Assembly (NCBI RefSeq): GCF_017313275.1
Contig: NZ_JAFLNM010000002.1
Coordinates: forward strand, 730,455-794,454
Reading direction: 5' to 3'
From: Flagellimonas profundi
GTDB lineage: Bacteria; Bacteroidota; Bacteroidia; Flavobacteriales; Flavobacteriaceae
Length of the DNA stretch: 64,000 bases
Position 1 is the stretch's first letter, and each line of letters opens with the position of its first letter. The notes below the pieces were generated by a model. That model searched no databases. It saw nothing but the letters and a program-made list of their open reading frames with translations, and had not been told where the DNA came from. The position numbers and the translations under genes were made by a program. Of the stretch, positions 996 through 37,276 are shown piece by piece.

Positions 996-2786
996 ATGGA
1001 GAAGAGAACACAAATAACCCCGACCACTGACCAAAAACAAGACAACAAAACACAAGAACTTGTAAACGCAAGAAAGGATACCTTGTCCAAACTCAAAAGT
1101 GAAGAAGGCAAGGGATTTGAATGGTTGAACGAATATAGCCGCCAATTTTTGGCATCAGGATACCTTACCGAAGGGGTGAGCCCGGAGGAACGTATCCGTG
1201 AGATTGGAGATAGGGCAGAGGAGATTTTGCAGATTCCGGGGTATTCGGACAAATTCTACGGCTACATGTCCGAAGGGTTCTTCTCATTGGCTTCTCCTGT
1301 ATGGTCCAATTTTGGGAAAAAGCGTGGGTTGCCCATCAGTTGCTTTGGCTCCCATATCGACGATGATATGGGGAACATCCTTTACACCCAGTCAGAGGTG
1401 GGGATGATGTCCAAACTTGGGGGTGGAACATCTGGTTTTTTCGGTAAGATCAGGCACAGGGGAGCACCTGTTAAAAACAACGGACAGGCTTCTGGAGCTG
1501 TGCATATTATGCAGTTGTTCGAATCCATGGTCGATGTGGTAAGTCAAGGATCGGTTCGTCGCGGTCGCTTTTCTCCATATTTACCTATTGACCATAAGGA
1601 CATTATGGAATTCTTGGAAATCGGAACCGAAGGAAACCCTATCCAACAATTGACCCACGGTGTAACGGTGACGAACCAATGGATGCAGGAAATGATCGAG
1701 GGCGATCTTGAAAAAAGAACCATTTGGGCCAAAGTGCTGCAGCGTAGAGGAGAAATGGGATACCCATATGTGTTCTTCTCCGACAATGCCAACGATGGGG
1801 CCGCGGATGTTTATAAAGATAAGAACCACCGTATCCACGCCAGTAACCTGTGCACGGAAATCATGTTGCCATCCAACGATGACTGGTCTTTTGTATGTGT
1901 GCTTTCCAGTATCAACCTGATGCATTACGACAAATGGAAAAAGACGGATGCCGTGGAGACCATGGTTCACTTCCTGGATGCCGTGATCACCGAGTTTATC
2001 GAAAAATTGGAAACGTACAGGGATTCATCCGACAGGGATGACCAACAAACGTTCCTATTTATGGAAAGAGCCTACAATTTTGCAAAACAAAACCGTTCAT
2101 TGGGTCTAGGTGCATTGGGATGGCACTCTCTTTTGCAATCCAAAAGATTGGCCTTCAACAGCCAAGAAGCCTATAACCTGAACAGCGAGATTTTTAGGGA
2201 GATCAAAGAACGCTCCTATAAGGCTTCGGAACAATTGGCGGAACGATTTGGAGAGCCCGAAGTATTAAAGGGCTATGGAAGACGCAACGCTACATTGAAT
2301 GCAATTGCACCGACTACTTCGTCAGCATTTATTTTGGGTCAGGTGTCCCAAGGAATTGAGCCTATCTGGTCCAATTGTTATGTAAAGGATATCGCCAAGA
2401 TCAAGACTACCATCAAAAACCCATTTTTAATGGAATTGTTGGAAGAAAAAGGACAAAATACGCCTGAAGTCTGGAAGAGTATCCGCGATATGGATGGTTC
2501 CGTACAGCATTTGGAATTCTTGACCGAAGAAGAAAAAGCTGTATTTAAAACGTATTCAGAATTAGATCAGTTGGATATTATCTATCAAGCGGCCAACAGA
2601 CAAAACCATATTGATCAGGGACAATCGGTGAATATTATCGTACACCCCGATATGCCTACAAAAGATATCAATAAAATCCATGTTACCGCATGGAAACTGG
2701 GTCTAAAATCCTTGTATTACCAGCACAGCATGAATGCCGCACAAAAATTCAAACAAAAGAAAGATTGTGTGAGCTGCGAAGCATAA
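996..2786 (+). CDS. nrdA: Class I ribonucleotide reductase, alpha (catalytic) subunit, no ATP-cone
   Basis: Reduces ribonucleoside diphosphates to deoxy forms using the radical from NrdB. Visible landmarks: C116 in GLPISCFG and C301 (the redox pair equivalent to E. coli C225/C462), N284-C286-E288 in the SNLCTEI motif (radical cysteine and its partners), tandem Y574-Y575 of the radical pathway, and the C-terminal re-reduction pair C591/C594 in DCVSCEA. At 596 residues it is about 165 shorter than E. coli NrdA. The N-terminus goes straight into the helical domain, so the ATP-cone that senses overall activity is absent. Regulation of activity must be missing or sit on the partner subunit. It is followed by a clear terminator. 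Confidence 0.95.
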   Translation: MEKRTQITPTTDQKQDNKTQELVNARKDTLSKLKSEEGKGFEWLNEYSRQFLASGYLTEGVSPEERIREIGDRAEEILQIPGYSDKFYGYMSEGFFSLASPVWSNFGKKRGLPISCFGSHIDDDMGNILYTQSEVGMMSKLGGGTSGFFGKIRHRGAPVKNNGQASGAVHIMQLFESMVDVVSQGSVRRGRFSPYLPIDHKDIMEFLEIGTEGNPIQQLTHGVTVTNQWMQEMIEGDLEKRTIWAKVLQRRGEMGYPYVFFSDNANDGAADVYKDKNHRIHASNLCTEIMLPSNDDWSFVCVLSSINLMHYDKWKKTDAVETMVHFLDAVITEFIEKLETYRDSSDRDDQQTFLFMERAYNFAKQNRSLGLGALGWHSLLQSKRLAFNSQEAYNLNSEIFREIKERSYKASEQLAERFGEPEVLKGYGRRNATLNAIAPTTSSAFILGQVSQGIEPIWSNCYVKDIAKIKTTIKNPFLMELLEEKGQNTPEVWKSIRDMDGSVQHLEFLTEEEKAVFKTYSELDQLDIIYQAANRQNHIDQGQSVNIIVHPDMPTKDINKIHVTAWKLGLKSLYYQHSMNAAQKFKQKKDCVSCEA

Positions 2787-2817
2787 ATAGCCAATAACCA
2801 ATGCTAAAAAGAAAAGA

Positions 2818-2845
2818 GGTCCTGATAAAATCAGGGCCTTTTTTT
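2818..2845 (+). terminator. Rho-independent terminator of nrdBA
   Basis: An 8-bp stem, GGTCCTGA with TCAGGGCC (one G-T pair), around a TAAAA loop is followed by seven T residues. It lies 32 nt after the nrdA stop and closes the operon. Confidence 0.85.
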
Positions 2846-2954
2846 GTTTTAAAATATGGTTGAAATGAGATGTTTCTTTCATCAGTAATGTGCCATTTCA
2901 CAACAAAACCATCTTACCATACAACATAACTTCTCCATTCTACACTGTTCTTGA

Positions 2955-2989
2955 TAAGTTTGGGTAAGCCTTACTGCGTAAGGTGAACC
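2955..2989 (+). promoter_or_regulatory. Promoter -7 element and 5' leader hairpin of the DUF11 gene
   Basis: TAAGTTTG (2955-2962) matches the Bacteroidota -7 consensus TAnnTTTG; no clear -33 TTTG is seen. Transcription should begin near 2969, right at a perfect hairpin CCTTAC-TGC-GTAAGG (2969-2983), with GGT/ACC able to extend it outward (2963-2989). The hairpin would form the very 5' end of the mRNA, about 20 nt before the start codon. Confidence 0.5.
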
Positions 2990-3003
2990 TCATCAACTAA
3001 GCT

Positions 3004-6000
3004 ATGATCAAACCCCATTTCAACCCTTTTTCCAGGTGTTTTTTATTGATGGTTTTTCTTGTGCTCTTTTTATCCCAAGCAGGATATGCACAAAATTGTT
3101 TGGTCAATGCAGGTTCCGATCAAAGCTTTGATCAAACTACTTCGGTATTTTTAAGTGCCGATACACCACCTGTTGGCACAGGATCCTGGACACAGCTTTC
3201 GGGCCCCACATTGGTAACTTTTGATGATGCCAGCGACCCGAACACCCAGATTTTCAATACAACTTTGGGTACATATATTTTTGAATGGACCGTTTCCGAT
3301 GCTACTTGCGACACAGCTTCCGACACAGTGGGCATTACCATTGAAGGAATAGATTTGGAATTGGAGCTCGTTGCCAGTAATCCGCTTCCCAATATCGGAG
3401 ATGTGGTCACATTTACCATTAACCTGAGCAATTTTGGAGATGTGGATGCCACTGGAGTAGCCATTGAAAACTTTGTCCCTGCTGGTTTTAACAATGTTAC
3501 AGCAATTGATAATAGCGGCACTTATAGCTTTTTGACGGACAATGTTACTTGGACGGGAATCAATGTCCCTGTTGGAAACAACACGGTATCTTTAAATTTT
3601 GATGCCACCGTTCTTACGCCAACAGGAGCTGCAGGGGAATACACCCATATTGCCGAAGTGATTTTCGCAGATCAGTTGGATATTGACAGCACACCAAACA
3701 ACGATGATGGCGACCAAAGTGAAGATGACGAGGACAATATTACGGCCGCTCCGCTGCAGGCGGATCTATCGTTGATCAAATCGGTGGTGGGAGGTAATTT
3801 ATCGCCTTATGTGGGTGAACAGCTCAGTTTTGAAATATCCGTATCCAACAACGGACCGCACGATGCCACCAATGTAAGGGTAGTGGATCAATTGTTGTCT
3901 GGCTTTGGCTATATTTCATATGCCGCTACAACGGGCACCTATGATCCTGCCAATGGTTTTTGGGAGGTGGGTACTTTGGCCAATGGAGATACGGAGACCC
4001 TTACTATTGATGTTGTAGTAAATGCCTCTGGAAATTATACCAATACCTCACAAGTGATTGCTTCTGATGCCTTTGATATCGATTCAACCCCTTCCAACGG
4101 AGTCTCCTCTGAGGATGACCAAAGTGATGTAGTGGTAACTCCTGAAGCATTGATCGACCTTTCTTTGACAAAAACAATTGATAAATCACCGCCTTTGGTG
4201 AGTGATAACGTAAGATTTACGCTTACCATAAACAACGATGGCCCAAGTGTCGCCACTTCTGTGGAAGTGACCGATCTGTTGCCATCAGGTTATACCTACG
4301 TCTCCGATAATAGTGGAGGTACTTACGATGAAAATACGGGAATTTGGAATGTAGGGTCCTTGGCCAATGGCAGTTCGGTCAGTTTAAATATCCTATGCAC
4401 TGTAAACCCATCCGGAGATTATGATAATGTTGCGGAGATCACAGGCCACGATCAGGTAGATGTGGATTCAAGTCCTAACAACGATAGTCCCAGTGAGGAT
4501 GATCAAGACGGCGTTTCCGTAGTTCCAGAACCTTTGGTAGATATTTCAGTGACCAAATCGGTGGACCAACTTATTCCAGAGGTAGGGGAGGAAATACTTT
4601 TTACGGTAACGGTCCAGAACGATGGTCCGAGCGATGCCACCAATATTGTGGTTACGGATTTGTTGGCATCGGGGTATCAATTGATCAATGCCACACCCTC
4701 AATCGGCACATACAATGAAACCAATGGTTCGTGGGTCGTAGGTGATTTGCCCAATGGAGTTTCTGAGACTTTGGACGTGTTGGTGGAAGTGCTGTCAACA
4801 GGAAATTATACGAACACGGCGGAGTTGACCAATGTTGGTGAAAACGATGTGGATTCAAGTCCAAATAACAATAATGAATCAGAGGATGACCAACAGACGG
4901 TAGAGCCCACTGTGATTCCTGTGGCCGACCTGTTGTTGCGTAAATCTGTGAACGTATTGAGTCCCTACGTGGGTCAAGAAGTGATTTTTACCATCAACAT
5001 CACCAATTTAGGGCCAAGTGATGCTTCGGGAGTTGAAGTAATGGACTTGTTGCCCGACGGATATACCTATGTTTCCCACAGTACCACGGCAGGAATTTAC
5101 AATGCCACTTCCGGGATGTGGTCGCTCAATGGTAGTTTGATCGATGGCAGTACAGAAAGCCTTTCCATTGTAGCTACTGTTAACAATACAGGCGATTATT
5201 TTAATGTGACAGAAGTATTTGCTGCTGATCAGTATGATCCCAATTCCATTCCGAACAACAACAATGTTTTTGAAAACGATCAGGACAATGCCGGTACCAC
5301 ACCGATTCCCTCAGCAGATTTAGCTTTGAACGTAAGTGTGGACAACCAATCTCCCGATGTGGGAACCCAAGTGACCTTTACCATCATTTTGTTGAATGAA
5401 GGGCCAAGTGATGCTATAGGAATTGAAGTTGAAAATATACTGCCCGATGGGCTTACCTATGTTTCAGACGATTCTGGAGGATTGTTTAATCCTTCCAATG
5501 GTCTTTGGGATGTTGGGAGTTTAGCATTGGAATCACAAAGAGAATTGAATATTGTAGCTGAAGTGAATTCTTCAGGTGATTATACCTTAAGAACCGAAGT
5601 GGTGGATGCTACTTTCTTCGATGCTGATTCCACACCGGACAATAATATGCTTTCAGAAGACGATCAAGATGAACAAACCGTCACGCCAAGACACGTAACC
5701 GATATTTCAATATCCAAAACGGTTAACGATATGAATCCAGAGGTGGGGGATGAAATTGTATTTACCATCGAGGTAAATAATGAAGGTCCCAACGATGCCT
5801 CAGGATTAATAATTGGGGATGAACTGGAGGACGGGTACCAATTCGTTGCTGCCACAACATCGTCTGGAATTTATGATGAAATTGCAGGCTCTTGGGATGT
5901 ACCGACTCTTGCCAATGCCTCAACCGAAACTTTGGAAATAAGGGCTGTTGTCCTTTCGAGTGGTGAATACAAGAATACGGCCGAACTGATCGCTTTGGAC

Positions 6001-7149
6001 ACGTACGACCCGGATTCCGAACCTAACAATAATTTGGGCTCAGAGGACGATCAAGCAACTGTAACTCCAGTGCCTTATGGGCTGAGCGACCTTTCCTTAT
6101 TAAAAACAGTCGATAATGCCAACCCGAATGTGGGTGATACGGTCCGTTTTTTGGTCAGTGTTACCAATAATGGTCCATCCGATGCTAGAAATGTGGAGGT
6201 AACCGATCTGTTGCCATTAGGGTATACCTACGAGTCCCATACTTCAACAGCAGGGGTCTACAATGCTGCTTCTGGGGTTTGGAACTTGAATAGAACCCTT
6301 TTGAACCAGGATACGGAAAGTTTGGAAATTTTAGCCGTGGTCAACCCCCCAACAGGTACCGAAGACGAGTATTTGAACGAGGCTTTTGTTTCTGCTAGTC
6401 TGTATGCCGACCCCGACAGCGATCCATCAACCGGTATCGTTGAGGACGATTTTGCAGATGGTATTGCAGATGATGATGAAGCAACCGCTTTTGTGGTGCC
6501 ACAATCCACTGATATCGCTATTACAAAAAGTGTGAACGTTGCAATGCCCAATATTGGCGACGAGGTTATTTTTGAGATTACGGTGACCAATCAAGGTGTT
6601 GATAATGCAACAAATATTGGTATACAGGAAGAATTGCCTTTGGGCTATGAATTCATCAGTTTCGAGACTACAGTGGGAACTTATGATTCCGAATCCTCTT
6701 TTTGGGAGATTGAATCCTTGGCTGTTTCCGAAACAGCAACACTATCGCTTACCGTAGCCGTTCAGGATATAGAGGATTACGTGAACAGGGTGAGTTTGGC
6801 CTATGTGGATCAATGGGATACGGATGAAAGCAACAATATTGCCGAGGCTTTTGTAGAGCCTAGCTGTTTGGTAGTGTACAATGAGTTTTCCCCCAATGGA
6901 GACGGTGTCAACGATTATTTTAAGATCGATTGTATTTCACGTTACCCGGGCAATACACTTCAGGTGTACAACCGATGGGGCAATATTGTGTTCCAGACAA
7001 AATCCTATAAAAATGATTGGGACGGTACGCCCAATGGACGCGCCATGGTTCAACCTGAAGATCAACTGCCGGTGGGTACCTATTACTATGTTTTGGATTT
7101 GGGCGATGGCTCCGAACCACGAACGGACTGGCTGTATTTAAACAGATAA
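3004..7149 (+). CDS. Secreted DUF11-repeat surface protein with type B T9SS C-terminal domain
   Basis: A 1381-residue exported protein. Residues 1-29 form a signal peptide (basic start, hydrophobic FLLMVFLVLFL, cleavage near GYAQ). An Ig/PKD-like segment follows (to about 112). Then come nine DUF11 units spaced about 130 residues, each opening with a variant of ADLSLTKSV, carrying NNGPSDATN and closing with a D-x-DSxPNN-x-xSEDDQ acidic tail, probably a calcium site. The last 95 or so residues are the gliding-motility-associated CHU_C domain (NEFSPNGDGVNDYF, YNRWGNIVF, W-D-G-x-P, PVGTYYYVLDL), the type B T9SS export signal. Its PorP/SprF partner starts 3 nt downstream. Likely a stalk-like adhesin; the ligand cannot be read from the sequence. 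Confidence 0.9.
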   Translation: MIKPHFNPFSRCFLLMVFLVLFLSQAGYAQNCLVNAGSDQSFDQTTSVFLSADTPPVGTGSWTQLSGPTLVTFDDASDPNTQIFNTTLGTYIFEWTVSDATCDTASDTVGITIEGIDLELELVASNPLPNIGDVVTFTINLSNFGDVDATGVAIENFVPAGFNNVTAIDNSGTYSFLTDNVTWTGINVPVGNNTVSLNFDATVLTPTGAAGEYTHIAEVIFADQLDIDSTPNNDDGDQSEDDEDNITAAPLQADLSLIKSVVGGNLSPYVGEQLSFEISVSNNGPHDATNVRVVDQLLSGFGYISYAATTGTYDPANGFWEVGTLANGDTETLTIDVVVNASGNYTNTSQVIASDAFDIDSTPSNGVSSEDDQSDVVVTPEALIDLSLTKTIDKSPPLVSDNVRFTLTINNDGPSVATSVEVTDLLPSGYTYVSDNSGGTYDENTGIWNVGSLANGSSVSLNILCTVNPSGDYDNVAEITGHDQVDVDSSPNNDSPSEDDQDGVSVVPEPLVDISVTKSVDQLIPEVGEEILFTVTVQNDGPSDATNIVVTDLLASGYQLINATPSIGTYNETNGSWVVGDLPNGVSETLDVLVEVLSTGNYTNTAELTNVGENDVDSSPNNNNESEDDQQTVEPTVIPVADLLLRKSVNVLSPYVGQEVIFTINITNLGPSDASGVEVMDLLPDGYTYVSHSTTAGIYNATSGMWSLNGSLIDGSTESLSIVATVNNTGDYFNVTEVFAADQYDPNSIPNNNNVFENDQDNAGTTPIPSADLALNVSVDNQSPDVGTQVTFTIILLNEGPSDAIGIEVENILPDGLTYVSDDSGGLFNPSNGLWDVGSLALESQRELNIVAEVNSSGDYTLRTEVVDATFFDADSTPDNNMLSEDDQDEQTVTPRHVTDISISKTVNDMNPEVGDEIVFTIEVNNEGPNDASGLIIGDELEDGYQFVAATTSSGIYDEIAGSWDVPTLANASTETLEIRAVVLSSGEYKNTAELIALDTYDPDSEPNNNLGSEDDQATVTPVPYGLSDLSLLKTVDNANPNVGDTVRFLVSVTNNGPSDARNVEVTDLLPLGYTYESHTSTAGVYNAASGVWNLNRTLLNQDTESLEILAVVNPPTGTEDEYLNEAFVSASLYADPDSDPSTGIVEDDFADGIADDDEATAFVVPQSTDIAITKSVNVAMPNIGDEVIFEITVTNQGVDNATNIGIQEELPLGYEFISFETTVGTYDSESSFWEIESLAVSETATLSLTVAVQDIEDYVNRVSLAYVDQWDTDESNNIAEAFVEPSCLVVYNEFSPNGDGVNDYFKIDCISRYPGNTLQVYNRWGNIVFQTKSYKNDWDGTPNGRAMVQPEDQLPVGTYYYVLDLGDGSEPRTDWLYLNR

Positions 7150-7152
7150 AAA

Positions 7153-8094
7153 ATGGGGATTATAGCATCAAAATATAAATCAATGGGATGTAAGCAGCTA
7201 TGTTTGCTGTTACTTGCCCTGTGCTCCATTTCCTTACATGCACAACAGGATCCTCAATTTACCCAGTATATGTATAATACTATGAGCGTTAACCCTGCCT
7301 ATGCAGGCAACAATGCACATTTAACAGCTTTGCTTTTACATCGCTCACAATGGGTAGGCATAAATGGAGCTCCGAACACGCAGGTGTTGGCCGTGGATAC
7401 TCCGTTGGAAAACAAGCTTGGGGTAGGGGGGATTATCTCTCGAGATGCCTTAGGGCCTTCTTCCGAAATATCGGTGGACGGAAATGTGTCCTATACCATT
7501 CAATTGGATAGTGCCAACAGCAAACTCTCTTTTGGGATGAAGCTGGGGGGACGTATTTTTGATGTTGATTTTTCCAAAGGCCTTACCGAAGATGAAGATG
7601 TGGCCTTTCAAAATAATATAAAAAGCAAGTTCTTCCCGACTATTGGTGCAGGATTGTATTATGATACGAAGAAAGGATATTTAGGCTTTGCCATACCCAA
7701 TTTTTTTTCGCAGAAGCATTATGATGGCGAGGAACAGGAAATAGCTGCGGAGCGTTTGCACTATTATTTTATTGGAGGTAAGGTGATGGATTTGACCCCA
7801 GATGTGAAATTGAAACCCGCTTTTTTCGTAAAATGGGTGCCTGGTGCTCCGATTATAGCCGATATTTCGGTAAATGCATTGCTCAAGGAAACCTTCACGT
7901 TTGGCCTGGCCTACCGTTGGGACGATTCTTTTTCCACCTTGTTGGGCATGCAAATCAATCCAAATTTCAGTGCTGGCTATGCCTATGACCTGACTACATC
8001 CAATTTGGCAAGTTATACGGGAGGGTCACACGAATTGTTTGTTCGTTACGAGTTCAAATCTTCCAAAAAACAAAAAGAAGCCCCCACATTTTAG
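7153..8094 (+). CDS. PorP/SprF family type IX secretion membrane protein
   Basis: Outer-membrane beta-barrel of the PorP/SprF family, which helps export or anchor a cognate type B T9SS substrate; here that is almost certainly the DUF11 protein whose stop codon is 3 nt upstream. Signal peptide with hydrophobic CLLLLALCSI and cleavage near LHAQQ. The mature start QDPQFTQYMYN and the following VNPAYAG are family hallmarks, and alternating aromatic strands run to the C-terminus. Residue 11 is a second ATG (7183) that gives a cleaner signal peptide, so the first ten residues may not be translated. Length (313) is normal for the family. Confidence 0.9.
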   Translation: MGIIASKYKSMGCKQLCLLLLALCSISLHAQQDPQFTQYMYNTMSVNPAYAGNNAHLTALLLHRSQWVGINGAPNTQVLAVDTPLENKLGVGGIISRDALGPSSEISVDGNVSYTIQLDSANSKLSFGMKLGGRIFDVDFSKGLTEDEDVAFQNNIKSKFFPTIGAGLYYDTKKGYLGFAIPNFFSQKHYDGEEQEIAAERLHYYFIGGKVMDLTPDVKLKPAFFVKWVPGAPIIADISVNALLKETFTFGLAYRWDDSFSTLLGMQINPNFSAGYAYDLTTSNLASYTGGSHELFVRYEFKSSKKQKEAPTF

Positions 8095-8131
8095 ACCGCA
8101 CTATTCTTCAGCCGGAAATAGTGAGTATCTT

Positions 8132-8139
8132 TAGCTTTG
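8132..8139 (+). promoter_or_regulatory. -7 promoter element for the precorrin-2 dehydrogenase gene
   Basis: TAGCTTTG matches the TAnnTTTG consensus and lies 26 nt before the ATG at 8166, inside the 71-nt gap after the PorP gene. No convincing -33 TTTG is seen. Confidence 0.45.
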
Positions 8140-8165
8140 TAATATGGCGCTAAAATTGATTTGCT

Positions 8166-8747
8166 ATGGAGAGGAATGAGCTATATCCCGTTTTTTTAAA
8201 GGTTTCCAACTTACAGGTATTGATTGTTGGCGGAGGAAACGTAGGTTTGGAAAAATTGACTTTTTTACTGAAATCGAGCCCTTCGGCCAAAGTACAAATG
8301 GTGGCTCCGGAGTTTTTATCGGATACCTTGGAATTGGCCAAAAAGCATGATGTTGAAATTACCAAGGATGTATATGCCAACAAGTATTTGGAAGGGAAGC
8401 ATATGGTAGTGGCTTGTACGGACAAACCCAAGGTGAACGAGCAGGTGTACCATGATTGCAGAAAGTTGAGTAAATTGGTAAATGTGGCGGACAATCCACC
8501 TTTTTGTGATTTTTATATGGGTGGAATCGTGACGAAGGGCAATGTAAAGGTTGCTATTTCCACCAATGGAAAATCACCGACCACGGCCAAGAGGCTACGT
8601 CAATTTTTTGAAGATGTTCTTCCCGAAAACATAGACGACTTGGTGAAGAATCTTAACGAATACCGCAAGACCCTTAAGGGGGATTTTGAGCAAAAAGTAG
8701 AGGCCTTGAACGAGTTTACCAAAGGGTTGGTCAACAAAAAGGATTGA
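8166..8747 (+). CDS. Precorrin-2 dehydrogenase / sirohydrochlorin ferrochelatase-like protein
   Basis: Corresponds to the N-terminal half of CysG (or yeast Met8). It oxidises precorrin-2 with NAD+ and probably inserts iron, the last steps to siroheme, the cofactor of sulfite and nitrite reductases. The Rossmann loop LIVGGGNVGLEK is at about residues 19-30. A second conserved block VNVADNPPFCDFYMGG follows at about 112-127, and ISTNGKSPTTAKRLR is typical of the central domain. At 193 residues the methyltransferase half of CysG is absent, as is usual in flavobacteria. No sulfate-assimilation genes are adjacent. It converges on the response-regulator gene with 3 nt between the stop codons. Confidence 0.88.
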   Translation: MERNELYPVFLKVSNLQVLIVGGGNVGLEKLTFLLKSSPSAKVQMVAPEFLSDTLELAKKHDVEITKDVYANKYLEGKHMVVACTDKPKVNEQVYHDCRKLSKLVNVADNPPFCDFYMGGIVTKGNVKVAISTNGKSPTTAKRLRQFFEDVLPENIDDLVKNLNEYRKTLKGDFEQKVEALNEFTKGLVNKKD

Positions 8748-33049: not shown

Positions 33050-34408
33050 ATGAAACTAATAGTAAAACACAGTATTTTTTTGCTTTGGGGGTTGAGCTCC
33101 ATGGCACAGCATCAAAAAGCACCTGATAAAGCGGAGAGCTTAAAGGAAATATTTGCGAATGGGGAAGTAGAAGGACATATTCGAAATTACTTTATGTCAA
33201 CTATCAACGAGGGGTCTTTGAAAGATTATTACACCGATGCCATCGGAGGTTCCATATCTTTCAAAACAATGGAATACAAAGGTTTTGAACTTGGTGTAAA
33301 GGGCATATTCACGTTTGAAGCGTTCACGTCCAATTTAAATGATCCCGACCCAACAACCGGGAAGGTTTCAAAATGGGAACACGAGCTTTACGATATTAAT
33401 GACTACAACAATCAAAATGACCTTGATAGATTGGAGGAATTATATGTAAAGTACAATTTTGACTCTGGGTATTTTACCTATGGAAAACTTGCCATTGAAG
33501 AAACACCTTTGCTCAATGAAACAGATGGTAGGATGAAACCATTTGCCTTCAAGGGTTTTTGGTTTCAATTACATCGAAAGAAACATATATTCAATATAAG
33601 TTGGTTGGACCGTATTTCGCCCAGAGGTACGGTGGAATGGTATAGCTTCAATGAAGCTATCGGGTTGTCGAACAACGGCTTTCAGCCAGATGGAACCCTA
33701 TCGGATTATCGAGACAAAACAGCATCCAAAGGTATCGCCTCTTTACAATATGAAACACAACTTGACCAATTTGGATTTAGGGCCAATCACTACTATATCA
33801 ATCATATTTCAAATACGAGTCTGATAGAATTGGATTATAAAAAGGGCGATTGGACCTTGGGTCTGCAATATGCATTACAGTTTTCCGATAGCTTCCAAAA
33901 AAGCTTGGACTACGCCGAAAGATATATGCAGCCTGGGGAAAACGGTCAGGTATTAAGTGGTCAACTGGCTTATGATCCACAGCATTGGCATTTTGGAGTT
34001 GCTTATACAAGGGCCTTTGATACTGGAAGGTTTCTGTTTCCCAAAGAATTGGGAAGAGACAACTTTTTCACTTCGCTCTCCCGCTCTCGATTGGAAGGTC
34101 TGGGGGATGTTAATGTTTTTACCCTGTACACTGATTACGATTTTGATATAGATGGATTGAACCTGGGCTTGGAAGTTACCGAAGTGTTTGGTCCCGGAAT
34201 AAACGAGTTTGAATTCAACAAATACAATATTGATGAATATTATCAGATAAACACAAGATTACATTATGAGTTACAGGGCTTTTTTGAAGGCCTTAATTTT
34301 GATGTTCTTTATGTGTACAAAAGGAACCTGAACAATTCTGACCCTATCAACGTATTCAATCAGAGCAACTTACACCAAATTAATTTTGTGACAAACTATA
34401 TTTTCTAG
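33050..34408 (+). CDS. Outer membrane porin (OprD-like beta-barrel)
   Basis: 452 residues. Signal peptide (SIFLLWGLSSMAQ). The mature protein opens with EGHIRNYFMSTIN and then GGSISFKTMEYKGFELGVKG, the pattern of OprD-like/outer membrane porin families in which the first strands hold an F-x-G-x-x-R motif. Alternating hydrophobic strands with aromatic girdles continue to a C-terminal strand ending in F (INFVTNYIF), the normal assembly signal. The substrate is unknown; pairing with the TauE-like permease suggests a small anion. It ends 123 nt before a strong bidirectional terminator that also marks the edge of the tRNA-Asp element. Confidence 0.82.
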   Translation: MKLIVKHSIFLLWGLSSMAQHQKAPDKAESLKEIFANGEVEGHIRNYFMSTINEGSLKDYYTDAIGGSISFKTMEYKGFELGVKGIFTFEAFTSNLNDPDPTTGKVSKWEHELYDINDYNNQNDLDRLEELYVKYNFDSGYFTYGKLAIEETPLLNETDGRMKPFAFKGFWFQLHRKKHIFNISWLDRISPRGTVEWYSFNEAIGLSNNGFQPDGTLSDYRDKTASKGIASLQYETQLDQFGFRANHYYINHISNTSLIELDYKKGDWTLGLQYALQFSDSFQKSLDYAERYMQPGENGQVLSGQLAYDPQHWHFGVAYTRAFDTGRFLFPKELGRDNFFTSLSRSRLEGLGDVNVFTLYTDYDFDIDGLNLGLEVTEVFGPGINEFEFNKYNIDEYYQINTRLHYELQGFFEGLNFDVLYVYKRNLNNSDPINVFNQSNLHQINFVTNYIF

Positions 34409-34531
34409 AAAAAAGCCGGTATTCAACATCCATGGTTCCAATGCAGGAACCGATCATGTGGAAGCTGGAAAAGAATTTGGGTATGGATTTTATGTGAAGT
34501 TGTTTTCCATTAAAATCATTTGCTAAAAACA

Positions 34532-34559
34532 AAAAAGCTCCGAAAAATCGGAGCTTTTT
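34532..34559. terminator. Bidirectional terminator beside the partial tRNA copy
   Basis: AAAAAGCTCCGA and TCGGAGCTTTTT form a perfect 12-bp stem over an AAAA loop, with A and T runs on both sides. It can end the porin transcript. On the minus strand it sits directly after the 3' end of the partial tRNA-Asp, so it is probably the original terminator of that tRNA before insertion. Confidence 0.85.
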
Positions 34560-34560
34560 G

Positions 34561-34604
34561 CGGTCTGGACGGGACTCGAACCCGCGACCCCCTGCGTGAC
34601 AGGC
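34561..34604 (-). repeat. Partial tRNA-Asp (3' half), attachment-site direct repeat
   Basis: Identical to 36148-36191 over all 44 positions, covering the anticodon loop with GTC, the variable region, T arm and acceptor 3' strand. After 34604 it turns into unrelated sequence (GGGAGGGGTTAAG), so there is no 5' half and no functional tRNA. It marks the distal end of the inserted element. Confidence 0.9.
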
Positions 34605-34669
34605 GGGAGGGGTTAAGTATTTAATTATCTGAAAAACAGGTATATAAGAGGTTGTTTGTTTGAATTTTA

Positions 34670-34702
34670 ATGAATAACGCATGAATAACGCATGAATAAA
34701 TT
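34670..34702 (+). repeat. Left iterons, candidate integrase arm-type sites
   Basis: Two exact tandem copies of the 11-mer ATGAATAACGC (34670-34680 and 34681-34691) and a third partial copy ATGAATAA (34692-34699). They lie 65 nt inside the left attachment repeat. The same unit recurs near the right end, as arm-type binding sites of tyrosine integrases do. Confidence 0.6.
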
Positions 34703-34832
34703 GGAGAAATAAGTACATATTAAGGCAGATTTTTGATTAATTACTGCTCTAATAAGAAGAGAATTATAGAGTTTTTAGTGGGTTGTTTAAGATGAGAAAT
34801 GATGGATTACTTTTTTCTAGTAATTTTAATGT

Positions 34833-35819
34833 ATGCAGAAAACTAAAAAATCTTTACAAGAGAAAAAATTTCATAAAACGATATTACATCGGTTCATTAA
34901 AGCTCTATCTTTTTTTATACTTACCATTCTTTATTTTAATTGTGCAAACTATTTGTTTTGTCAATCCCAGGCTGAGGATAGATATAGATTTGGAAATCTT
35001 GACTTCTCCGTGGTCAAAATTTTTGTAGATGATGAGAGTTTCGGTTCCGGATTTGTTATTGATGGTCCATACTTAATTACAAATTTCCACGTAGTTGAAA
35101 AGGTAATAGAAGCAAAACGAAATGACTCTAAAAACCCTCCGATCATTAAGTGGTTAAATGCCAAATTATCTCAAGATAAAATTTTTGCTATTGAGGATTA
35201 TCCAACTGCCGAGGTTTTAAATGATTTTATATCAAACGATACAATTTATTACTATGGAAAAGCTTCTGATCTCATAGTCCTAAAACCAAATAGAAATATA
35301 AATCTTCATTCGAAACTTCCACTATCAAAACAATGGATGAATAGAGGAGACAAAATTTTGGTAGCTGGATTTCCTTTAGGTCTGGAATATATGACTATTA
35401 GTTCTGGGATTATCGGAAATCAAAGAAGCGAGTTAATTAGAAAAGATGTTTCTGATATGTTACCTGTATCTGCAATATTTAGAGGACAAGGTGATTTTAT
35501 ACTTGCAGCTGGTGGATCAGGTGGACCAGTTGTAAAAATTGGAAAAACGATTAGTAAAGATAGTGTGATTGGAATCGCAGTCGGTGGTAAAACAAAGAAT
35601 GCTAAAAAATTAAAAAGGATTTATGATATCTATGATAACAAATTGGATAGTATCATTGCTACCCAAGATGGTTTTAACCCTCAAAATAAAATTCACAGTA
35701 ATTATTATGAAAAATATTTGATTTTTTCTTCGTTTATTAATTCAAATGTTCAAATTCCTGAATTTATTCATGTTTCTCATTTAAGGGATTTGCTGGATTT
35801 ACTTGAAATTGAACACTAG
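34833..35819 (+). CDS. Secreted or membrane-anchored trypsin-like serine protease, element cargo
   Basis: 328 residues. A basic N-terminus precedes a hydrophobic segment (FIKALSFFILTILYF, about 21-35), so the enzyme is exported or anchored with its catalytic domain outside the cytoplasm. S1/HtrA-type core: H86 in LITNFHVV, D146 in ASDLIVLKP, S229 in AAGGSGGPVV, with the usual serine context GNSGGP appearing as GGSGGP. GSGFVIDG and AVGGKTKN are further strands of the fold. There is no PDZ domain; the last 75 residues are unassigned. Base composition is visibly AT-richer than its neighbours, suggesting transfer. It is the only gene in the tRNA-Asp element. The target is unknown. Confidence 0.8.
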   Translation: MQKTKKSLQEKKFHKTILHRFIKALSFFILTILYFNCANYLFCQSQAEDRYRFGNLDFSVVKIFVDDESFGSGFVIDGPYLITNFHVVEKVIEAKRNDSKNPPIIKWLNAKLSQDKIFAIEDYPTAEVLNDFISNDTIYYYGKASDLIVLKPNRNINLHSKLPLSKQWMNRGDKILVAGFPLGLEYMTISSGIIGNQRSELIRKDVSDMLPVSAIFRGQGDFILAAGGSGGPVVKIGKTISKDSVIGIAVGGKTKNAKKLKRIYDIYDNKLDSIIATQDGFNPQNKIHSNYYEKYLIFSSFINSNVQIPEFIHVSHLRDLLDLLEIEH

Positions 35820-35963
35820 TTCATTTAATATAAAATCCGATATCTACTTCCGTTACCTCTAGGTTTCTAAAAATTTATTAGCTCTTTTCAAGTGAATATA
35901 AAAAGATGAAAGATTGTTTGTTAATGGTTGGCACTTTCTTTAGCAATGGGAAATACGTTTTTT

Positions 35964-35986
35964 AACGCATGAATAACGCATGAATA
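35964..35986 (+). repeat. Right iterons, candidate integrase arm-type sites
   Basis: One full 11-mer ATGAATAACGC (35969-35979) flanked by AACGC (35964-35968) and ATGAATA (35980-35986), the same tandem phase and orientation as the left iterons. They lie about 160 nt inside the right attachment repeat. Confidence 0.6.
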
Positions 35987-36115
35987 GGAGTGCATGAAAA
36001 ATTGTGAAGAAAAGAGAAAATTAAAGAAAATAGAGTATAAAGCACTTAAAATAAGTTACTTGTGTTTTTTGACCCCCTGCCATTAAAATGTTTGGGCAAT
36101 TCAAGTCCAAAAACG

Positions 36116-36144
36116 CGAAAACCCCAGTAAAACTGAGGTTTTCG
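36116..36144 (-). terminator. Terminator of the intact tRNA-Asp
   Basis: CGAAAACCCCAG pairs with CTGAGGTTTTCG (one mismatch) over TAAAA. On the minus strand it begins 3 nt after the tRNA 3' end. Its sequence differs from the terminator beside the partial copy, as expected if the element brought its own. Confidence 0.75.
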
Positions 36145-36147
36145 AAG

Positions 36148-36221
36148 CGGTCTGGACGGGACTCGAACCCGCGACCCCCTGCGTGACAGGCAGGTATTCT
36201 AACCAACTGAACTACCAGACC
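36148..36221 (-). tRNA. tRNA-Asp (anticodon GTC)
   Basis: A 74-nt cloverleaf on the minus strand. Acceptor GGTCTGG (36221-36215) with CCAGACC (36155-36149) and discriminator G; anticodon stem CCTGC/GCAGG around loop CTGTCAC with GTC at 36187-36185; T arm GCGGG-TTCGAGT-CCCGT. No encoded CCA. Its 3' 44 nt are duplicated at 34561-34604, so it is the integration target restored by the element. Confidence 0.95.
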
Positions 36222-36346
36222 AATGATTTTATCTTTGTTAGACTCCGACAACAGTCGGATTCAAATCTTGTTCAATGCTTTTTTAAAGCGAGTGCAAATA
36301 TACATTCTCATTTCGGATATGGCAAAACATTTTTTTAAAAAAATGA

Positions 36347-37276
36347 TCAACCAAATTTTTGTCTCTCGATCATAAAGGAATTCAGCACTTGGGAGAAGTC
36401 CGAGCGAACATCTACCCCCACATATTTTATTTGGTACTGTGCGCATTTCAGTTTTAGGTCATTCTGATATTCCAATACTTTTTGCGAATATGCTTTCTTG
36501 ATGGAATCAGCATACAAATCTATCTGTTCACCTGTTTCCACATCCACAAAACGTTTGGGTGTATCATCAAACTCAAAATAGAGCTCATGCTCTTTGTCCA
36601 AGAGGTGGAAAAGTACCACGGAATGTTTGTTGTATTTGAGATGACGCAAGGCTTCGAAGAGTTTATCCTCTTCAGTTTCCGTTTGGAACATATCGGTAAA
36701 TAAAAAGATCAAGCTTCTTCGATGGATTTTCTCGGCAATTTGATGTAGAAACGTGTAGGTTTTGGTCTCCTTTGTTTTAGGTGTATGCGAAGCCACTTCG
36801 TTCAGTTTGGAATACAACATTTGATAATGACGTTCGCTGTTCTTCTCCGAAGCATGGAAGTCATATGTATTGGAATAGATGCTAAGCCCTACCGCATCCC
36901 GTTGTTTTTTTAAAACCTGCATCAAGGCAGCAATGGAAAGCACCCCAAAACCAATTTTGTTGAGGTTGTCCAAGGAATATTCCTTCACTTCCGGATAATA
37001 CATGGAGGCCGAGTTGTCCAAGATCATGTGACAGCGCAGGTTGGTCTCATCCTCAAAACGTTTGGTGTACAAACGGTCCGTTCGGGCAAAAAGCTTCCAG
37101 TCAATATGTTTGGTGCTCTGTCCGGGATTGTAAATTTTGTGTTCGGCAAACTCCGCCGAGAAGCCATGGAACGGACTTTTGTGTATACCACTGATAAATC
37201 CCTCCACAATTTGGTGGGCCAAAAGCTCCAAATTTTGGAAGAGGGTCGCTCTGCTAAGTTCCGATCTTACGTCCAT
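36347..37276 (-). CDS. DUF58 domain protein (VWA-like)
   Basis: 309 residues. The central DUF58 block, HKIYNPGQSTKHIDWKLFARTDRLYTKRFEDE at about 46-77 (consensus R-x-Y-x-x-G-D-x-x-R-x-I-D-W), is followed by a von Willebrand A-like fold with a MIDAS-type motif LDNSASM at about 86-92 and FLFTDMFQTE at about 190-199. DUF58 proteins usually pair with MoxR ATPases in chaperone or metal-insertion complexes. No MoxR gene is next door, so this copy may act with a distant one. 36222-36346 downstream holds only a short inverted repeat TCCGAC-AACA-GTCGGA (36244-36259). A terminator lies between it and trxA upstream. Confidence 0.88.
   Translation of the reverse strand: MDVRSELSRATLFQNLELLAHQIVEGFISGIHKSPFHGFSAEFAEHKIYNPGQSTKHIDWKLFARTDRLYTKRFEDETNLRCHMILDNSASMYYPEVKEYSLDNLNKIGFGVLSIAALMQVLKKQRDAVGLSIYSNTYDFHASEKNSERHYQMLYSKLNEVASHTPKTKETKTYTFLHQIAEKIHRRSLIFLFTDMFQTETEEDKLFEALRHLKYNKHSVVLFHLLDKEHELYFEFDDTPKRFVDVETGEQIDLYADSIKKAYSQKVLEYQNDLKLKCAQYQIKYVGVDVRSDFSQVLNSFMIERQKFG

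Follow-up and report, generated by a model that had tools for sequence, protein, structure and literature searches.

Does a single gene enclosed between an intact tRNA-Asp and a second copy of its 3' part represent an element moved by an integrase supplied from elsewhere, or is it what is left of something larger? The question is raised by a locus in the window, the 64,000-nucleotide stretch of the Flagellimonas profundi genome analysed here. The two copies of the direct repeat are identical in 45 of 45 positions (98% over 48 bp) and stand 1,587 bp apart, one within the intact tRNA and the other as a lone 3' half (Table 1). The intact copy is the one complete tRNA of the window, with which Rfam concurs within positions 34400–36400. 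A 27-base tRNA-Asp pattern gave, among the matches listed for the source genome, two matches, namely the half and the whole tRNA-Asp. The terminators behind the two copies are unlike in sequence, and the G+C content of the interior is 30.2% vs. 43.7% for the whole window. Three reading frames of at least 80 aa touch the insert: one long gene, which encodes a protease; a frame of 81 aa that overlaps this gene; and one of 112 aa on the minus strand, which crosses the left boundary outward. Stretches without coding flank the protease gene on both sides. No integrase, relaxase, or transfer gene was present among the reading frames of the insert, and a comparison with integrases up to E 10 yielded pieces only, all with E of at least 0.30 and none of them a convincing remnant. 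The perfect repeat, the differing terminators, the single AT-rich gene, and the lack of an integrase had all been claimed in the original prediction, and these claims stand.

Table 1. Positions in the window of the insert at tRNA-Asp, its parts, and its borders.
Feature	Position	Strand	Basis
Native tRNA-Asp terminator, stranded past the half-tRNA	34532–34559	−	Near-identical terminator adjoins the intact tRNA-Asp in G018
Distal attachment-site half, repeating 45 bp of the tRNA-Asp 3' part	34560–34604	−	Repeat comparison
Left tandem repeats, very probably arm-type, 11-bp period, unit AACGCATGAAT, two full copies and one partial	34670–34699	+	
Serine protease of trypsin/HtrA fold, probably exported, PDZ not found, 328 aa, triad H86 D146 S229	34833–35819	+	
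Right tandem repeats, very probably arm-type, sequence and orientation as the left ones	35963–35986	+	
Insert-borne terminator, now behind the intact tRNA-Asp	36116–36144	−	
Attachment-site half within the intact tRNA-Asp	36147–36191	−	Repeat comparison, G018 comparison
Intact tRNA-Asp(GTC)	36147–36221	−	tRNA search, Rfam

An empty site is present in the closest relative found, genome G018, with 96.2% identity to the source genome across 7.8 kb of the left flank. There, an uninterrupted tRNA-Asp is directly followed by the terminator that in the source genome sits past the half-tRNA. Integration at the tRNA 3' end, as originally proposed, is well supported by this site, which implies that, after the two lineages diverged, either the source genome gained the insert precisely or G018 excised it just as precisely. 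The same locus of G018 (L033) has approximately 1.7 kb with a 388-aa frame between tRNA-Asp and a gene that we take to be porin-like; this stretch is absent from the source genome. The 388-aa gene is leucine-rich-repeat-like by eye and is flanked by two similar terminators. This difference is separate from the insert and leaves the junction unaltered.

The iteron ATGAATAACGC, predicted to recur in the same orientation near both ends of the insert, occurs exactly at 34670, 34681, and 35969, always on the plus strand. When one mismatch was allowed, five matches were obtained vs. 1.0 expected, and 0 of 100 shuffles reached five. Each end holds two full copies of the unit AACGCATGAAT, the left end an extra partial one, and the 24-bp string TAACGCATGAATAACGCATGAATA stands in register at 34675–34698 and 35963–35986. 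In the shared-word test, the two ends had 17 bases in common (the greedy scan splits the 24-bp string, hence 17) compared to 12 at most in 200 mononucleotide shuffles; the tandem period of 11 was matched by 0/200 dinucleotide shuffles at each end. Inverted words linking the ends were short only (9–12 bp) and chance-like. The end repeats are direct. A MITE or transposon was rejected, as the insert is devoid of terminal inverted repeats; replication iterons or transposon ends were rejected likewise, the insert carrying no other gene and its repeats being direct, not inverted. In the source genome, the iterons are restricted to the insert, in line with the earlier expectation that they should not be common genome-wide. 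We conclude that they are very probably integrase arm-type sites, as had been suggested, because the same plan is shared by two integrase-bearing tRNA-Met elements of the source genome and by most of the tested tRNA-Asp elements of relatives.

The tRNA-Met elements provided the strongest test of the arm-type reading. The arm pairs upstream of the integrases L143 and L144 of the source genome each occur at two places on the same strand with 0–1 mismatch. Each element has a cluster at either end, at a spacing of 140 kb and 19 kb, respectively; the integrase-side cluster adjoins a partial tRNA-Met and the other cluster an intact one, with 28 and 47 bp of the tRNA in common. The partial copies were recognised by sequence, and ARAGORN calls no gene there. 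In the control, the first arm pattern had two further places with three mismatches, and its reversed version also 2; the second pattern had no other places, and its reversed version 0. Judged by sequence, the window insert has the plan of these tRNA-Met elements minus the integrase. Beside the intact tRNA-Met ending the 140-kb element, a second partial tRNA-Met was seen by eye (L152; G000:C2, ~832926), which suggests earlier insertion events. Two further loci of the source genome (L138 and L141) have B-like integrases at tRNA-Pro and tRNA-Ser/tRNA-Pro and a common arm motif of 12-bp period, TGTCCTAT.

Among relatives, the A-type tRNA-Asp elements carry TGTTGTACCTATGTTGTACCCAA at both ends in one orientation with a period of 11. 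The B-type elements L052 and L079 have a motif common to both ends, and 12-bp-period repeats adjoin the tRNA in L052, L034, L041, and L062. For seven of the nine tRNA-Asp elements tested, the window included, same-orientation end words exceeded in length those of all 200 mononucleotide shuffles. This test was failed by L086 (19/200 shuffles) and L119 (9/200) as well as by two protease-bearing elements, at tRNA-Arg in G008 (27/200) and at tRNA-Phe in G066 (177/200), in which short repeated motifs are nevertheless visible by eye; with dinucleotide shuffles, the tandem test gave 106/200 and 2/200 for the G008 and G066 elements, respectively. Of 36 regions lying at the ends of elements or upstream of integrases, 19 (17/34 without the window ends) had tandems with a period of 10–13 that no more than 10/200 dinucleotide shuffles reached, a count that is indicative only, since some are A/T-rich words and many regions come from close relatives. 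The distance from arm repeats to tRNA was 159 and 72 bp in A-type elements and approximately 70–76 and 119–126 bp in B-type elements. That of the insert, ~110 bp on the distal and 180 bp on the proximal side, resembles neither, and therefore its integrase may be of a third kind.

The tRNA-Asp locus itself was compared among relatives by means of a neighbouring 309-aa gene (window 36347–37276), which we presume to encode a DUF58-type protein. It is present in 69 of 71 genus genomes and adjoins the tRNA-Asp 3' part in all 30 loci inspected, source genome included. From 68 relatives with this gene, 60 were fetched, and all 60 have an intact tRNA-Asp. A clear second copy lies 12.1–18.5 kb off in seven of them; that of L035 (3 mismatches in 24, without exact extension) was left out of the count. 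A near full-length match to the B-type integrase starts 234–271 bp from tRNA-Asp in 16 of the 60, and an A-type integrase, shortened in L047, adjoins the distal half in three; L047 and L088 have an additional B-type integrase past the distal half. By these counts, the genus has an integration hotspot at tRNA-Asp. In the family sample, same-strand tRNA-Asp copies beyond the spacing of neighbouring tRNAs were, among the matches listed, 5.5 kb (L119), 16.2 kb (L121), 19.4 kb (L120), and 28.7 kb (G416, from coordinates only) apart. No integrase was found in L119 and L121 with the queries used. Close pairs in G380, G185, G223, G142, G386, G084, and G458 proved to be complete tRNAs, not inserts; two of these seven pairs in other genera have a third copy adjoining N. 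The locus L081 (G014:C4) has two complete tRNA-Asp copies 13.5 kb apart, an integrase match in pieces only, and large frames that we take from their sequence to be peptide-modification-like and transporter-like. Possibly, an island that duplicated the entire tRNA has decayed here.

The 5.5-kb insert of L119 (G426:C1:1390500-1400500, 2569–8178) extends from a 29-bp tRNA-Asp piece to an intact tRNA-Asp and contains a single 1,569-aa frame; its terminator is duplicated too, and its arm repeats are not significant. It is a different kind of single-gene insert at tRNA-Asp. Its existence speaks for a reading in which the insert of the window is no integrase product either, having arisen by duplication or homologous recombination around tRNA-Asp, with the iterons acting as operators or replication iterons. 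In the window, however, the two terminators are unlike, the insert has a precise empty counterpart in G018, and iterons are found at both ends as in integrase-bearing elements, which makes this origin very improbable.

The exact iteron pair was found in none of the genome contigs (one genome per species, 84,980 species) or IMG/VR stretches, and a slightly degenerate pair was likewise absent from IMG/VR. When up to three mismatches were allowed in the 71 genus genomes, the pair matched at three places inside the insert and at 10 scattered places, all with three mismatches, in 8 other genomes; the reversed control matched at 7. The iteron pair, a search for which near tRNA-Asp and integrase genes had been suggested, was thus not encountered elsewhere in the genomes and viral contigs scanned, beyond these scattered three-mismatch places. 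Thirteen PF00589 matches of the source genome were inspected with flanks of ~1.5 kb, and no AACGCATGAAT tandem was found near them, only scattered single words (0–2 mismatches allowed, best 1). ARAGORN places a tRNA or tmRNA close to seven of the 13, six of these seven being B-like (34–54% identical), and two further ones adjoin partial tRNA-Met sequences. The interior DNA of the insert matched 17 of the 71 genus genomes at E 0.01, and only the match in the source genome is real; the other 16 genomes have pieces of 21–40 bp. Four of these short matches were inspected: two correspond to a terminator following tRNA-Arg, a third follows what by eye is a half tRNA-Arg, and for the fourth no tRNA was found. 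A second copy of the insert was not found in the genomes and viral contigs searched. Of the proposed integrase-less element moved in trans, the missing integrase, the integration at the tRNA 3' end, and the arm-type nature of the iterons are well supported; no element with the same iterons turned up in the scans, so a deletion derivative fits at least as well as a trans-mobilised element.

The protease gave a Trypsin_2 match above the Pfam cut-off, and no PDZ was found in Pfam. The predicted trypsin-like triad of H86, D146, and S229 is identical in all six aligned proteins, the window's included. The structure model had a mean pLDDT of 79 and a pTM of 0.73; the closest solved structures among the 50 matches listed were HtrA-type proteases with query-normalised TM-scores of 0.39–0.49. 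The C-terminal part is helical. The N-termini of the aligned proteases, read by eye, are hydrophobic (the start of L150 is clipped), which suggests export, and we regard the protease as probably exported.

The protease family is rare. With the source genome counted each time, relatives were detected in 4/71 genus genomes at E 1e-5, in 2/397 genomes of the family sample at E 1e-15 and, by profile, 1e-30, and in 2/395 genomes of the phylum sample by profile search at E 1e-25. No match was obtained among 50,697 phage and 72,556 plasmid records; none was confirmed in a single-protein scan of genome contigs (84,980 species) or in viral contigs scanned with the G180 and G066 relatives. The relative in G008 belongs to a tRNA-Arg element of 7.2 kb that has an Arm-DNA-bind_5 integrase, and that in G066 to a ~10-kb tRNA-Phe element bounded by a 14-bp repeat, with the integrase at the far end. 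The relative in G040 lies on a prophage among phage genes (head maturation protease, endolysin) and recurs with 100% identity on two IMG/VR contigs (42 and 15 kb). The relative in G180 (45% identical) stands between apparently chromosomal genes, and no tRNA was found near that in G666. Recognisable mobile DNA carries four of the six proteases, window included. The G180 gene (L111, 8686–9731) has an imperfect 24-bp inverted repeat (79%) on both sides, reminiscent of a gene cassette. The small tRNA-Arg and tRNA-Phe elements (L110, L109) have 202-aa and 102/103-aa genes in common by eye, for which no Pfam or PHROG match was obtained in L110, and also share a small basic protein, perhaps the small subunit of a terminase; they are possibly phage satellites.

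The PADLOC model RT-Protease_XI, the reverse transcriptase part of which we take from the model name, was matched at profile positions 340–493 of 506 only, and an RT-Protease_XI system was rejected, the match being confined to the protease domain. PDC-M35A matched all six proteins (best E 7e-10; window protein 7e-4, positions 21–187 of 216). Since the PADLOC models match through the protease domain only, they provide no evidence of a defence system. A function in defence is possible, and a role at the envelope, host- or phage-related, is a guess; the literature search found no reports on periplasmic prophage proteases.

The recurrence of this protease family as cargo of mobile DNA favours a true minimal element, mobile as a unit of 1.6 kb, its sites and arms under selection, its integrase that of a visiting phage or integrative element, and the protease its sole gene. 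The gene and every cis site appear undamaged, and a precise insertion or excision has taken place since the split from G018. Nevertheless, a second copy was not found in the places searched, and none of the 13 PF00589 matches of the source genome has matching arms; we consider such an element unlikely. A stable minimal hitchhiker, spreading as this 1.6-kb unit through the integrases of visitors and repaying visitor or host by its exported protease, e.g., by excluding competing phages, is unlikely.

We consider the insert most likely to be a CIME-like integrase-less element derived from a larger integrase-bearing element by internal deletion (probability approximately 0.6). A tyrosine integrase would have inserted that element into the 3' part of tRNA-Asp, from the anticodon to the end, leaving the tRNA whole and bringing a new terminator; insertion itself is shown, the site being empty in G018 and the tRNA half duplicated. 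An internal deletion would then have removed the integrase and any other genes, with both arm-like clusters and both attachment halves surviving. Judging from reports on CIMEs, the insert would be moved only if its sites were recognised in trans by a cognate integrase, or if a newly arriving element integrated alongside and took it along. The empty site, the terminator swap, the tRNA-Met controls, the tRNA-Asp hotspot, the end repeats in seven of nine elements, and the lack of an integrase remnant support this explanation. Against it stand arm distances matching neither the A-type nor the B-type, the failure of two of nine tRNA-Asp elements in the end-repeat test, and L119, according to which a single-gene insert between tRNA-Asp pieces can arise without arm repeats. 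The scans revealed no larger element whose arm repeats are the same; the parent is therefore unseen, and its deletion is what we infer. The insert could also be a dead remnant, that is, a decayed island with sites no longer working and a protease whose retention, if there is any, would be owed to a host function. Its orphan state in the source genome and the non-coding stretches on both sides of the gene would agree with decay, but the attachment halves are identical over 45 bp and the repeats over 24 bp, and the gene and its triad are intact; we find a dead remnant quite unlikely.

According to the available parts of two reports, CIMEs retain attL and attR and have lost the integration and transfer genes (PMC5704250, PMC7563491). 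Classical CIMEs of Streptococcus salivarius measure 1.2–13 kb, and elements of this size composed of att sites plus cargo are reportedly frequent in streptococci (PMC7563491). The insert resembles them, by sequence, in its attachment sites around a cargo gene, without integrase or transfer genes, and its size is within that range. It differs in being solitary, not in tandem with an integrase-bearing element, and in its Bacteroidota host, the CIMEs described in those parts being streptococcal. Descent from an ICE or IME also defines a CIME, and a parent with the arm repeats or interior DNA of the insert was not found in the genus genomes, genome contigs, or IMG/VR; as the structure is otherwise that of a CIME, we call the insert CIME-like. 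It is no IME or ICE, having no integrase of its own, and no phage satellite, its single long gene being a protease, without phage-hijacking or packaging genes or an integrase. The literature search found no description of the insert and no reports on arm sites in satellites.

The A-type tRNA-Asp elements (L047, L080, L088, L120) and the tRNA-Met elements (L151/L152, L155/L156) are similar to the insert in their position at the tRNA 3' part with a half-tRNA at the far end, in repeats of 11-bp period and one orientation at both ends, and in having a different terminator-like hairpin behind each tRNA copy (judged by eye for tRNA-Met). Unlike the insert, they carry an integrase and span ~12 to 140 kb, and their arm sequences and arm-to-tRNA distances are different. 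The G008 (tRNA-Arg) and G066 (tRNA-Phe) elements likewise have a protease relative on the tRNA side but keep an integrase and other genes, and their proteases are only 22% and 29–30% identical. With HtrA/DegP/DegS and MarP-like proteases, the insert protease shares the fold, the trypsin-like domain with its H-D-S triad, and probable export, whereas it has no PDZ match, a helical C-terminal part, and scores far below the NCBIfam cut-offs (27.6 bits vs. 416.2 for TIGR02037). The insert is real and well delimited, and its CIME-like kind is already known. Two attachment halves and two arm clusters of 11-bp period, apparently the least that a tyrosine-integrase element needs in cis, stand in it alone with one cargo gene, which makes trans-mobilisation directly testable. 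Its rare, probably exported protease family recurs on phage and tRNA-integrated elements and may merit an anti-phage assay.
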